64,000 nucleotides of DNA from a virus: the IMG/VR virus record IMGVR_UViG_3300036715_001290, positions 62,001 through 126,000 of that record, one strand, 5' to 3'. Below the pieces are notes generated by a model. The model made no database searches. It saw nothing but the letters and a program-made list of their open reading frames with translations, and had not been told where the DNA came from. Positions 15,843-41,039 of the stretch are shown piece after piece. Made by a program: the position numbers and the translations under genes. The first letter of the stretch is position 1, and every line of letters begins with the position of its first letter.

Positions 15843-15851
15843 TATATTTAT
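15843..15851 (+). promoter_or_regulatory. TATATTTAT motif before nrdJ
   Basis: TATATTTAT lies 34 nt upstream of the ATG at 15877, in a 73-nt intergenic gap, with a TAAGGAAAT box before the start. Confidence 0.4.
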
Positions 15852-15876
15852 ATTTTTTACATTATAAGGAAATTAT

Positions 15877-18019: not shown

Positions 18020-18541
18020 ATGAAATTAATATGTTTATTAAATGAAAAAGAATCATATTGGTATTTAGGTTCAAATCCAACAGCCGATGCGGCCGTATTT
18101 AAGAAAGTTAATAATAATATATTATTATTATTGATTAAACGTAAAGGTGAAATTGAACATGGAAAGTGGGCACTCCCAGGTGGTTTTGTAGATACGCTTT
18201 CTAAAAAAGGTGAACCGTGGAAACAAGACAAAGAAACACCAAAACAAGCAATTATACGAGAATTAATAGAAGAAACAGGATTAAATATCTCAAATATTGC
18301 CAACATGTTGAAAAAAATAGGTACATATAAAGGACATAAAAGAGATCCAAGGGATAATGATAAAGGTTGGTCATTATCTAATGCATATGCAATATTATTA
18401 CCTAATGATTTTAATACATCAAATATAAATGCAAAAGATGATGCTAGTGAATTAAAGTGGTTTGATATTAAAAGTTTACCAAATTTGGCATTTGATCATA
18501 GTATTATTATAAAACATGCAATATCAAGAATATTTAGATGA
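18020..18541 (+). CDS. Nudix hydrolase
   Basis: 173 residues. LPGGFVD begins the Nudix box; its catalytic half TPKQAIIRELIEETGL (about 75-90) is intact, with a 13-residue insertion between the two halves. The preceding RKGEIEHGKWALPGG is typical of ADP-ribose/NUDT-like enzymes found in phages beside NAD+ or nucleotide metabolism genes. The substrate cannot be read from sequence; cleaning of damaged nucleotides or ADP-ribose hydrolysis are both possible. Confidence 0.8.
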   Translation: MKLICLLNEKESYWYLGSNPTADAAVFKKVNNNILLLLIKRKGEIEHGKWALPGGFVDTLSKKGEPWKQDKETPKQAIIRELIEETGLNISNIANMLKKIGTYKGHKRDPRDNDKGWSLSNAYAILLPNDFNTSNINAKDDASELKWFDIKSLPNLAFDHSIIIKHAISRIFR

Positions 18542-18600: not shown

Positions 18601-19125
18601 ATGAAATTAAGTTCAGTTATAGCGGCTCCAGCCGTAATTCAAGAAGTCGCTAATGATTTTAAGAACATACCATTAAAAGGTAAAAAAACAAAAGTAGAAA
18701 TGTTTTGGGAATATAAATTATTACCTGCTACATTTGATATTGATTTTGGTTATAAAATTAATTTTGATAAAAAACAAGTAGATTATCATTTTGCATCAGC
18801 CGATGGTAAAATGGATACTGGTGGTATCTATTATGAAGTTGTTAAACCATATTTCTCAGAAAGAACCATTTTAACAAAAGCTAAAAATATTGGTATACCT
18901 GAATTTGTAGTTAAATATTGTAACTATGGTGGTGATAGTGATTTACATTCTATTAACATTAAACGTACATACGTATTTAACTTTTCACATACAATAACTT
19001 TTGAAGCAAAGGATTATAAAAAGACTTTTACAAAGGACCAAATAATGAAATTGGCTCAAGATTGGGTTAATAAAGCAGAGAATGTTTTATTTCCAGATAC
19101 CGATTTCTATAAAATAACAAAATAA
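18601..19125 (+). CDS. Unknown protein with shared N-terminal tag; possible internal head protein
   Basis: 174 residues starting MKLSSVIAAPAVIQE. The start resembles the first residues of the two following proteins and of the minus-strand gene at 37517, whose bodies are otherwise unrelated to it. The tag is a short hydrophobic-amphipathic stretch ending in I-x-E. In T4, internal proteins carry a comparable N-terminal capsid-targeting sequence cut by the gp21 protease after (L/I)-x-E. The body is beta-rich (DIDFGYKINFD, YHFASADG) with no recognised enzyme motif. Packaging in the head is inference. Confidence 0.6.
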   Translation: MKLSSVIAAPAVIQEVANDFKNIPLKGKKTKVEMFWEYKLLPATFDIDFGYKINFDKKQVDYHFASADGKMDTGGIYYEVVKPYFSERTILTKAKNIGIPEFVVKYCNYGGDSDLHSINIKRTYVFNFSHTITFEAKDYKKTFTKDQIMKLAQDWVNKAENVLFPDTDFYKITK

Positions 19126-19134
19126 GGAATCAAT

Positions 19135-19539
19135 ATGAAACTAAATAGCGTAATAAAAGAATATGGTATGAACAAAGATGTTCTTAAACCTGGGAAATCT
19201 TATAAAATAAAAACCGTAAAAAATGATTATGATTTATTTGTATTAGATGTAACGGTTGCTGGTCCTTGTTTGTACAAAGCAAATGAAGTTGCAGTTGTTG
19301 CTGATTTTTATGAAGTAACCGTAAGTGTATTTGATAAAGGTGGTCAAGAACAATTTTCACAAGAGACTGAGTTTGTAACACGAACAAAGTTAAAAGAAAC
19401 AAATGCAGGTGAAGTTGCAAAATTAATTGCAAATATAGCAGGTAATACTTTAAGTAAATTGGAAATGAATATTTCACGTACAGTTGATAATTTATTAACT
19501 ACAGATTTACCTAATAAAGCAAAGGCCGTTAAATTATGA
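19135..19539 (+). CDS. Unknown protein with shared N-terminal tag
   Basis: 134 residues starting MKLNSVIKE, the same tag type as its neighbours. The body alternates beta strands (YKIKTVKNDYDLFVLDVTV) with a C-terminal helix (EVAKLIANIAGNTLSKLE). It overlaps the next gene by 4 nt (ATGA). No family recognised. Possibly co-packaged with the capsid, by analogy with T4 internal proteins. Confidence 0.6.
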   Translation: MKLNSVIKEYGMNKDVLKPGKSYKIKTVKNDYDLFVLDVTVAGPCLYKANEVAVVADFYEVTVSVFDKGGQEQFSQETEFVTRTKLKETNAGEVAKLIANIAGNTLSKLEMNISRTVDNLLTTDLPNKAKAVKL

Positions 19540-19937
19540 AGTTAAATACACTCTTAAAAGAAGCACCTGTTGGTAAATTAACACCTTATAAAGGTAGTCA
19601 AATAACTGGTAATGATACATCTATAATGAAAGTTAAATCAGAATTGTTTTACGTTGGTGTTAAATTAAGTGTACCTTATACTGATGAAGCCGGTGATATA
19701 TATTATATATACTATGTTGAAATTCAAGATAAAGCTAAAAGTAAAACTGGTTGGTATATGCAAGAACGTTTGGTTGTAAAAATAACAAAAAAATATAAAG
19801 ACCAAAATGCATTAACTAAAAGAATAATAGAAATTGTATATGCTGAAATTAGAAAGCTTGAAAAATCTATTATTCCATTAGGTACACAATGTACAGAAAC
19901 TATAAAAGAACGTGTTAGTTTAATTAGTAATTCATAA
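19536..19937 (+). CDS. Unknown protein with shared N-terminal tag
   Basis: 133 residues starting MKLNTLLKEA. Residues 1-9 are nearly identical to those of the protein at 37517 (MKLITLLKE). The body has central beta strands rich in Tyr (GDIYYIYYVEIQD) and a helix of Lys/Ile. It is the last gene before a 15-bp hairpin. The identical tag on unrelated bodies is seen directly; its function as a targeting peptide is inferred. Confidence 0.6.
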   Translation: MKLNTLLKEAPVGKLTPYKGSQITGNDTSIMKVKSELFYVGVKLSVPYTDEAGDIYYIYYVEIQDKAKSKTGWYMQERLVVKITKKYKDQNALTKRIIEIVYAEIRKLEKSIIPLGTQCTETIKERVSLISNS

Positions 19938-20001: not shown

Positions 20002-20010
20002 TATATTTAT
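20002..20010 (+). promoter_or_regulatory. TATATTTAT motif before the helicase gene
   Basis: TATATTTAT lies 36 nt before the ATG at 20038, directly after the hairpin at 19952-19995, with AAAGGTTA just before the start. Confidence 0.4.
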
Positions 20011-20037
20011 AAACATATGATATAATAAAGGTTACAA

Positions 20038-37516: not shown

Positions 37517-37903
37517 TTATAATTCTTCTACTTTACCTGTTAATTCAATATTTTGGATTGGTTTCCAATTGGTTAGCATGTTACTCATTACTGGTTTTCC
37601 ACCATTAGATTTATTTACAGCAATTGTAATATGTTTAATTTGATTTTTGCTTGGAACATCAGTAACAACCTTTACAGCTATTACTTTGTTATTCGATGCA
37701 ATTTCGGTAGCGATTAATTTAACTATCTTTGATTTTAATTGTTTATACTTTAGGTTACCTAAATTAATAGTCATATGATGAGCATAAATTACCCAATCGT
37801 TAGGAATTTCAATACTTCTTAACAATTTATTATGAGATACCCTGTCTAAAACAACGGCACTGTATGATACATTATATTCTTTTAATAGTGTTATTAATTT
37901 CAT
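37517..37903 (-). CDS. 2H phosphoesterase, Acb1-like, with shared N-terminal tag
   Basis: 128 residues on the minus strand, convergent with dCMP deaminase and divergent from the nuclease gene at 37966. Two H-x-T motifs stand at H43-M-T45 (in AHHMTINLG) and H91-I-T93 (in IKHITIAV), the paired catalytic signature of 2H phosphoesterases. Length, the two H-x-T sites and the SAVVLDRVSHNKLL start of the domain resemble T4 57B/Acb1, which degrades the cyclic nucleotides of CBASS immunity. The first nine residues MKLITLLKE match the tag of the proteins at 19135 and 19536, suggesting packaging in the capsid and delivery with the DNA. Family and substrate are inferred from motifs. Confidence 0.65.
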   Translation of the reverse strand: MKLITLLKEYNVSYSAVVLDRVSHNKLLRSIEIPNDWVIYAHHMTINLGNLKYKQLKSKIVKLIATEIASNNKVIAVKVVTDVPSKNQIKHITIAVNKSNGGKPVMSNMLTNWKPIQNIELTGKVEEL

Positions 37904-37936: not shown

Positions 37937-37950
37937 TATATTTATAAATA
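37937..37950. promoter_or_regulatory. Symmetric TATATTTATAAATA in a divergent intergenic gap
   Basis: The 62-nt gap between the minus-strand gene (start 37903) and the plus-strand gene (start 37966) holds TATATTTATAAATA. Both strands contain TATAAATA, the T4 late-promoter core, and the plus strand also has TATATTTAT. It may drive both genes. Confidence 0.4.
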
Positions 37951-39587: not shown

Positions 39588-41039
39588 ATGTTAAGAGAAT
39601 TTATAAATCTCGATGACTTTTTAGAGTTTGATAAATATAAAACTCCAATTCCTAAAGCCGAACGCAAAACATTATTAATGATATCTGATGATATGTTTAC
39701 ACCAAGCGGTGTTGCAAATGTATCAAAAAATATTATCTTGAAAACTGCACATCATTTTAATTGGGTGCAATTGGCATCAATGCAAAATCATCCAAAACAA
39801 GGAAATATTTTTAATCTTGATGAAGAGTTAAAAACTCAATTCGGTATAGAGGATGCATCGGTTACATTAATTCCAATAAGTGGTTTTGGTGATGAAAGAA
39901 CAATTAATCAAATATTAGAAATGTTTAATATTTCTGGAATATTATTCATAACAGATCCTAAATATTTTGTTTGGTTATTTGAGATAGAACATCAATTACG
40001 TACAAGAGTCCCTTTATTATATTATCATGTTTGGGATAATATACCTAATCCAAAATACAATAAATCATTTTATGAATCATGTGATTATATTGCATCAATT
40101 AGTAAATTAACTCACAGTATTATTAAAAATACAATTTCACCTGAATTATTACGTGATTTATATTTAACTTACATTCCACATGGTGTTGATGAAAAAGTAT
40201 TTTTTAAGATAGATGAAACCGATGAAGATTATAAAAAATTCAAATCAGACTTCTTAAAAACTGAAGATGAATTATTTACCGTATTATATAATAGTAGAAA
40301 CCAAAATAGAAAACGCACAACGGTTTTACTTGAAGCATTTGGTAAATTTTTAAAGATGCCGAATGTTGATGTAGATAAATGTAAATTAATTTTACATACT
40401 GATATGTTTCCTGCTAATCCTGATGGAACAAACTTATATGCATGCATAGAGGATGTATACACTGATATAAAAGGTAAATATATTGAAACTAATGGAATAA
40501 TGGACCAAAAGCTTATTAATTATTTATATAATATAGCTGATGTAACCGTTAGTACTTCTAATGCAGAGGGATTTGGTTTAGGTACATTAGAATCAATGAT
40601 GGCAGAAACTCCAATTATAGCAAATATAACAGGAGGTCTACAAGATCAGTTTAATTTTATAGATGAAAATGAAAATCCATTAACTGTTGACAAATACACA
40701 GAAACATTTCAAACAAACTCTATTAGAAAATATGAAAGACAATCTTCGGTAGTTGGTGTACCAGTATTTCCTAAATTAACATGGTCATTTGGAAGTATAC
40801 TTACACCATATATTAACAATGATGAAGTATCTTCAGATGATATTGCTGATGCAATATATTTAATGTATACTATCGGAAAACATGGTCGCGACCAAATGGG
40901 TAAAGATGGTAGAGAATCTGCTTTAGGTTTTATTAAAGGTATGTATGCTGATAATATGGCATATAGATTTATGAAAACAATTGATGAGTTTCTTACATTA
41001 TGGAAACCAAAATCAAAATTCAAAATTTTTAAGGGTTAA
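39588..41039 (+). CDS. GT4-type glycosyltransferase
   Basis: 483 residues. GT-B fold: an N-terminal TPSGVANVSKN loop and the acceptor-domain DYIASISKLT, then NRNQNRKRTTVLLEAF (start of the donor domain) and the C-terminal signature STSNAEGFGLGTLESMMAETP. It is one of two adjacent GT4 genes separated by 1 nt. Acceptor unknown. Confidence 0.8.
   Translation: MLREFINLDDFLEFDKYKTPIPKAERKTLLMISDDMFTPSGVANVSKNIILKTAHHFNWVQLASMQNHPKQGNIFNLDEELKTQFGIEDASVTLIPISGFGDERTINQILEMFNISGILFITDPKYFVWLFEIEHQLRTRVPLLYYHVWDNIPNPKYNKSFYESCDYIASISKLTHSIIKNTISPELLRDLYLTYIPHGVDEKVFFKIDETDEDYKKFKSDFLKTEDELFTVLYNSRNQNRKRTTVLLEAFGKFLKMPNVDVDKCKLILHTDMFPANPDGTNLYACIEDVYTDIKGKYIETNGIMDQKLINYLYNIADVTVSTSNAEGFGLGTLESMMAETPIIANITGGLQDQFNFIDENENPLTVDKYTETFQTNSIRKYERQSSVVGVPVFPKLTWSFGSILTPYINNDEVSSDDIADAIYLMYTIGKHGRDQMGKDGRESALGFIKGMYADNMAYRFMKTIDEFLTLWKPKSKFKIFKG

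Follow-up and report, generated by a model that had tools for sequence, protein, structure and literature searches.

The window analysed here, a stretch of 64,000 nucleotides, corresponds to positions 62001-126000 of a virus record of 140,489 bases. At 37517..37903 it carries a gene for a 128-residue protein of the 2H phosphoesterase type, which is encoded on the minus strand between a dCMP deaminase gene and a PD-(D/E)XK exonuclease gene. The sequence-only reading of this DNA had described an open reading frame with two H-x-T motifs 48 residues apart and alone in its orientation, and both points are borne out: H43-M-T45 and H91-I-T93 are separated by exactly 48 residues, and the gene is the sole convincing minus-strand gene in its neighbourhood. 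The features referred to below are as follows.

37517..37903, minus strand: 2H phosphoesterase, CNPase/Trl1-CPD-like, 128 aa, with an N-terminal tag (from the open reading frame, its relatives and the predicted fold)
37877..37903, minus strand: tag MKLITLLKE, codons 1-9, ending in L-K-E, disordered in the model and absent from most stand-alone relatives
37769..37777, minus strand: catalytic motif 1, H43-M-T45, kept in 56 of 56 aligned sequences
37625..37633, minus strand: catalytic motif 2, H91-I-T93, kept in 55 of 56
37939..37950, no strand assigned: TATTTATA and TATAAATA, overlapping, in the intergenic space between this gene and the plus-strand exonuclease gene
18020..18541, plus strand: NUDIX hydrolase, tagged likewise (MKLICLLNE)
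18601..19125, plus strand: protein with a divergent tag, MKLSSVIAAP, with no L-x-E at the expected place
19135..19539, plus strand: protein with the tag MKLNSVIKE
19536..19937, plus strand: protein with the tag MKLNTLLKE, followed by AP

Two of the record's products are a major capsid protein of T4 type (PF07068, E 1e-68) and a prohead protease of family S77 (E 1e-20). Among the records listed, the capsid protein is nearest to those of the uncultured phage LR756508, Microcystis phage Mel-JY01 and Flavobacterium phage immuto, with 46-51% identity. The 2H gene looks like a late addition, because immuto has a PD-(D/E)XK nuclease gene and no detectable 2H protein.

Relatives of the 2H protein were found at about 80 loci in scans of viral contigs. 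In an alignment of 56 sequences from this set H43 and T45 never vary, and all sequences except one keep H91 and T93, so that the HxT motifs are not a product of chance. An AlphaFold2 model built on the same alignment reached a pLDDT of 93.7, with the fold starting at residue 14-15 and residues 1-10 showing a mean pLDDT of 56. When compared with solved structures by VIA-align, the model matched the catalytic domain of CNPase best (Z 12.8, 2.1 A over 119 residues), followed by the fungal tRNA-ligase Trl1 kinase-CPD structure 6u05 (Z 10.2) and by the goldfish RICH and rat CNP NMR models of the same CNPase/Trl1-CPD group (Z 8.8-9.9), and the remaining 2H entries gave Z 7.5 or less. CNPase was also ranked first by Foldseek, where all matches fell short of E 0.001. 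By its predicted fold, the protein is thus placed within the CNPase/Trl1-CPD group of the 2H superfamily, with which it has the two HxT motifs in common. It differs from CNPase and Trl1 in being only 128 residues long, stand-alone and provided with a removable-looking N-terminal tag, and its best Pfam match, tRNA_lig_CPD (PF08302), stays at 20.6 bits under the 23-bit cut-off, which counts against the reading preferred below. In the kinase-fused relative L052 the same family scores 27.2 bits, over the cut-off. A sequence search of solved structures with the 2H protein returned nothing meaningful. Matches to SoxY and Myb were rejected as chance, being low in score, partial and of unrelated folds.

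The domain partners of the relatives point toward RNA. Longer proteins make up 34 of the 62 distinct relatives, and they include an AAA_33 kinase joined to the CPD domain (L052), a PolyA_pol/CCA-adding enzyme joined to it (L016), a HAD_SAK_1 domain (PF10307) joined to it (L080), all by Pfam, and a further PolyA_pol protein (L018), where the 2H domain was recognised via the alignment. The placing of the domain behind a P-loop polynucleotide kinase is a trait held in common with CNPase and Trl1, and L080 resembles the Swiss Army Knife RNA-repair proteins, from which the window protein differs in having no HAD part. Behind the kinase-2H gene of record G018 stand a NUDIX gene and a gene for a T4 Rnl1-type RNA ligase. 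Only one cellular relative was found, in a Candidatus Nomurabacteria MAG; a P-loop kinase gene comes directly after it, the kinase being recognised by its Walker A motif only. Given these fusions to 5'-kinases, CCA-adding enzymes or HAD_SAK domains, the likeliest role of the predicted 2H enzyme is that of an RNA-end 2',3'-cyclic phosphodiesterase.

RNA-repair genes are present in the record itself, namely a Pnkp-type kinase-phosphatase (HAD_PNKP 1e-50), an Rnl1-type ligase (5e-19) and an Rnl2-type ligase (1e-28), and 33 tRNAs are predicted in the window. One of these predictions (ARAGORN, window 49072-49143) carries the anticodon CTA, which reads TAG, and is possibly a suppressor tRNA. CNPase-type enzymes leave a 2'-phosphate. 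If the product is the same here, it counts against the preferred reading that a search of the record found no Tpt1/KptA gene. In a review of jumbo phages, the clearing of 2',3'-cyclic ends for ligation is assigned to phage 2H enzymes (PMC7824862).

The tag had been claimed to match the first residues of the proteins encoded at 18601-19937. This is true for 19536-19937 (MKLNTLLKE, 8/9) and, to a lower degree, for 19135-19539 (MKLNSVIKE, 6/9), and at 18601-19125 the match is poor (MKLSSVIAA, 3/9). Several bearers had been missed, including the NUDIX gene at 18020 and two genes outside the window at genome 40873 (MKLINLINE) and 52692 (MKMIDLLNE). Two tag-like proteins lie in the head module, at genome 39519 (MSNTIKMMSLLKEAP) and at 40873, directly after the protease. 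The pattern MK[LM]..[LIV][LIV][KN]E occurs at the start of 6/178 genes of the record and at 0/6,735 internal methionine positions, figures that serve as description and give no clean p-value, as the pattern was drawn post hoc from the tagged genes; in other records it occurs in 1/1,313 genes, and 0.003 genes are expected from shuffled N-termini. The nearest neighbour of the 2H tag, at genome 81536 (window 19536), is identical at 8/10 positions, compared with a mean best of 4.8 and a maximum of 7 for shuffled queries. No close relatives of the protein at 19536-19937 were found in viral contigs.

Comparison with homologues marks the tag as an addition to the 2H domain. The first conserved tyrosine is preceded by 1-8 residues in 22 of the 28 stand-alone relatives and by 12-17 in six, the window protein included, with these N-terminal sequences:

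window 2H protein: MKLITLLKEYNVS
L059: MIKLKELLKKPT
L079: MIKLKEIISQSNKR
L090: MIKLKTLVTENLTKRK
L073: MMLFKEFFDKDKNSKVS
L034: MNWYKKANQNIS

The tagged relatives L059 and L079 are without L-x-E, which counts against the preferred reading. A different N-terminal extension, MNWYKKAN, starts the 2H proteins L028:5079 and L034:5974 of two other phages, with no second copy in those loci.

The sequence-only reading had called the tag capsid-style, and this description is supported: it is a discrete add-on of the T4 capsid-targeting type, found on unrelated proteins and ending in a prohead-protease motif. The T4 protease gp21 cleaves on the C-terminal side of L/I-x-E, and residues 1-10 of IPIII are enough for packaging; in T4, processing can be blocked by a substitution that leaves targeting in place (PMC9026906). 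The propeptides of the internal proteins and Alt are removed in the head (PMC9026906, PMC7411985). The leader is all that IP1-3 have in common (PMC12373910), and the T4 internal proteins with known targets are these restriction inhibitors and the ADP-ribosyltransferase Alt (PMC12373910, PMC9026906). The window protein follows the same plan, with an N-terminal tag of about ten residues that ends in L-K-E9, thus in the L-x-E motif of the T4 protease, ahead of unrelated bodies and in a genome with a T4-type capsid protein and protease. In the alignment of major capsid proteins (slashes mark the cleavage site), FLTE/A of T4 coincides with QLVKE/S of this record and with SLLTE/A, QLIEE/A, CLRE/A, LISE/T, MINE/S and LFNE/I in six other records. 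The spelling differs, MKLxxLLKE here versus MKTYQEFIAE in T4, and positions 4 and 7 are Ile4 and Leu7, hydrophobic and non-aromatic, where IPIII has Tyr4 and Phe7. The putative cargo also differs, being a predicted RNA-end enzyme instead of a restriction inhibitor or ADP-ribosyltransferase. Moreover, a tyrosine follows the presumed cut in the 2H protein, which is unusual for T4 and counts against the preferred reading; the protease of SPN3US cuts before Tyr (PMC7411985).

As a control, a looser tag pattern was applied to T4 itself, where it gave 11 matches including IPII, IPIII, gp24 and Alt and missed IPI. Its sensitivity is good and its precision only moderate, since about 6 of the 11 matches are proteins not known as packaged, a result counted against the preferred reading. 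With about as many false as true T4 matches and weak enrichment in some records, this pattern was rejected as proof by itself, and arrays, a record-specific consensus and the comparison of homologues were used instead. The product of T4 gene 61.1 (NC_000866 18966-19130; L180:18966-19130) starts with MKTFKEFIKED, close to the IPIII leader.

Runs of adjacent genes, nearly all starting with MIKLKxLLxE, were found in the records G021, G032, G038 and G022, with the 2H gene within or beside them. The tandem runs of L151 (G021), L148/L149 (G032) and L143 (G038) comprise about 6-12 unrelated genes with MIKLKxLLxE and lie beside tail and neck genes. In G018 about 15 genes start with MKxxIKxLLRE, including genes shortly after the major capsid protein, a CCA-adding enzyme and the kinase-2H fusion, and in G012 the tags are T4-IPIII-like, with MKNFHTFIAEA on a 2H fusion (L038) and MRSFKSYISEA, MKNFHEFVTET and MKTFVSYISEN on its neighbours. 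In W01 the 2H protein starts with MMNFAQWVENE and a nearby gene with MKTFAEWIVE. Against internal methionines the loose pattern is enriched in G038 (p 9e-7), G032 (3e-4), G018 (5e-4) and G021 (1e-3), weakly in G000 (0.036), and not at all in several other records. Among 35 tagged proteins of four records there is one homologous within-record pair only, and the tag codons and upstream DNA differ among the tagged genes. An origin of the tagged genes as recent paralogues or by copying of 5' ends was consequently rejected, with bodies unrelated and both codons and upstream DNA divergent.

The tagged cargo of these relatives includes Alt-like ADP-ribosyltransferases, CCA-adding enzymes, a GNAT acetyltransferase, a phage lysozyme, NUDIX and NUDIX-lysozyme proteins (the latter tagged in G032) and Acb1-family 2H proteins, together with a weak Tpt1/KptA match. 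Genes around the head module of immuto carry similar tags. Four immuto proteins (NC_055915; 1803, 103806, 117631 and 118632) share an N-terminal module of about MENFDLKKFLVENKLTxNSKLL, several of them near terminase and head genes, and this is perhaps a second kind of leader. In the fused protein L038:1415-2407, a second tag-like stretch, ENFHAFINEAP, stands directly ahead of the 2H domain in addition to MKNFHTFIAEA near the start, as if the prohead protease could release that domain.

The sequence-only reading had taken the isolated orientation and the shared gap as suggesting separate and perhaps late expression, and the late-promoter argument was not sustained: TATAAATA is present in the gap, yet it is enriched neither in the window (41 vs 32 +/- 6) nor upstream of genes (4/66 vs 2.1), and as a late promoter it was rejected. 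The enriched upstream motif of the record is TATATTTATA, which occurs in 10/66 gaps against 0.4 expected, precedes structural as well as metabolic genes and is probably a phage promoter element. It is found record-wide, for example at window 15845-15852 and 20004-20011, mostly 25-45 bases ahead of starts. The element at 37939..37950 fits the full motif in the orientation of the plus-strand gene only, and the 2H gene has just the TATTTATA core upstream. With TATAAATA not enriched and only this core ahead of the gene, late expression is not established.

Taken together, the locus probably, and with some reserve, encodes an RNA-end 2',3'-cyclic phosphodiesterase of the CNPase/CPD group behind a T4-type capsid-targeting sequence. 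What the data show directly is the fold group, the catalytic residues, the tag as a discrete add-on on unrelated proteins, the genes for protease and capsid protein, where the cleavage motif agrees, and those for RNA repair. The tag would bind the prohead core and carry the enzyme into the prohead, the T4-type S77 protease would cut after L-K-E9, and the enzyme would be injected with the phage DNA. In the new host it would open the 2',3'-cyclic phosphates that are left when defensive host RNases cut tRNA or other RNA, an activity suggested by the predicted fold and the domain partners, and the record's own kinase-phosphatase and RNA ligases would then finish the repair.

A possible, though rather unlikely, alternative is that the enzyme class is the same and the N-terminal sequence does not target the capsid, binding for example another phage or host protein, so that the enzyme would be made after infection beside Pnkp and the ligases. 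This would agree with the failure of the late-promoter evidence, with the stand-alone relatives, most of which work without a tag, and with the other RNA-repair enzymes of the record, which carry none, a fact that counts against capsid targeting. It does not account well for a tag that recurs on unrelated proteins, including the products of two head-module genes at genome 39519 and 40873 beside the protease, for its ending in a prohead-protease motif, or for tagged-gene arrays in relatives that include Alt-like ADP-ribosyltransferases.

It is doubtful that the enzyme acts instead on 2',3'-cyclic NMPs or on ADP-ribose 1'',2''-cyclic phosphate and so supplies the tagged NUDIX hydrolase at 18020 and clears signals or NAD-derived products. 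The identical style of tag on that NUDIX protein, the tagged NUDIX-lysozyme of G032, the NUDIX gene after the kinase-2H gene in G018 and the link drawn between jumbo-phage 2H and Nudix enzymes in NAD/ADP-ribose conflicts (PMC7824862) speak for such a role. They are opposed by the fusions with nucleic-acid enzymes (kinase, CCA-adding, HAD_SAK), by a search for macro domains that found none in the record, and by the match to the Arabidopsis Appr>p phosphodiesterase (1fsi), which reached only Z 7.0.

That the protein is an Acb1-like enzyme degrading CBASS cyclic oligonucleotides and delivered with the DNA, as first proposed, is highly improbable: it has the 2H fold and the HxT/HxT tetrad of Acb1 (T4 gene 57B), which are common to the whole superfamily, and Acb1 is among its structural matches, but neither the protein (E up to 1) nor the whole record gave a match to PF23474. 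A profile comparison with T4 57B returned 7% probability over 16 columns with the second HxT alone aligned, and the HxT spacing is 48 residues versus 69 in Acb1, where the pair runs from H44 to H113 (PMC9117128). Acb1 is further characterised by base-stacking aromatic residues and a C-terminal lid (PMC9117128). The proposed check by structure prediction ranked Acb1 (7t26, Z 7.4, 3.9 A over 106 residues) lower than CNPase and Trl1-CPD; the structural match thus falls to a different 2H group, which is the structural half of what the sequence-only reading had itself named as telling against Acb1. The identity was rejected on the profile evidence, with support from the structure comparison, and the domain partners of the window family differ too, being RNA-repair enzymes.

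Tagged Acb1-family proteins over the Pfam PF23474 cut-off do occur in G032 (36.6 bits) and G022 (29.8 bits). They lie at L149:5324-5842 (-) and L128:13265-14335 (+), have a MIKLK/MMTLK-type tag and belong to the very gene runs that include the tagged RNA-end 2H protein, and they are candidates for head-loaded anti-CBASS enzymes. Since tagged true Acb1-family proteins adjoin 2H relatives in two phage records, the idea of an anti-CBASS enzyme loaded into heads keeps its plausibility for other phages, not for this record. T4 Acb1 itself (57B, NC_000866 73952-74410, L172:13953-14411) starts with MMEFKDFSTG, which speculatively resembles the IPI leader MKTFKEFTST; its gene adjoins ipI, and its product has no obvious L-x-E.

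Capsid-targeting sequences and 2H cyclic phosphodiesterases were already known separately, and in a search of literature mainly outside the subscription journals, neither a paper joining capsid-targeting sequences with RNA repair nor a report of tandem arrays of tagged RNA-repair or counter-defence genes was found. More broadly, there is about an even chance that in many T4-type lineages a short N-terminal capsid-targeting code, spelled MKLxxLLKE, MIKLKxLLxE, MKxxIKxLLRE or MKNFxxFIAEA according to lineage, serves as a general loader of a counter-defence and RNA-repair enzyme kit into the head, often from about ten genes in tandem, and RNA repair would thereby start before phage gene expression. 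The kit would comprise 2',3'-cyclic phosphodiesterases, kinase-phosphodiesterases, CCA-adding enzymes, Acb1-type nucleases, ADP-ribosyltransferases, NUDIX enzymes and lysozymes. If this is true, RNA repair and the removal of nucleotide signals would arrive in the cell along with the DNA and ahead of the tRNA-cutting nucleases of abortive infection, and should the tag prove a general code for loading, sequence alone would allow a prediction of those among the many phage proteins without known function that are injected.
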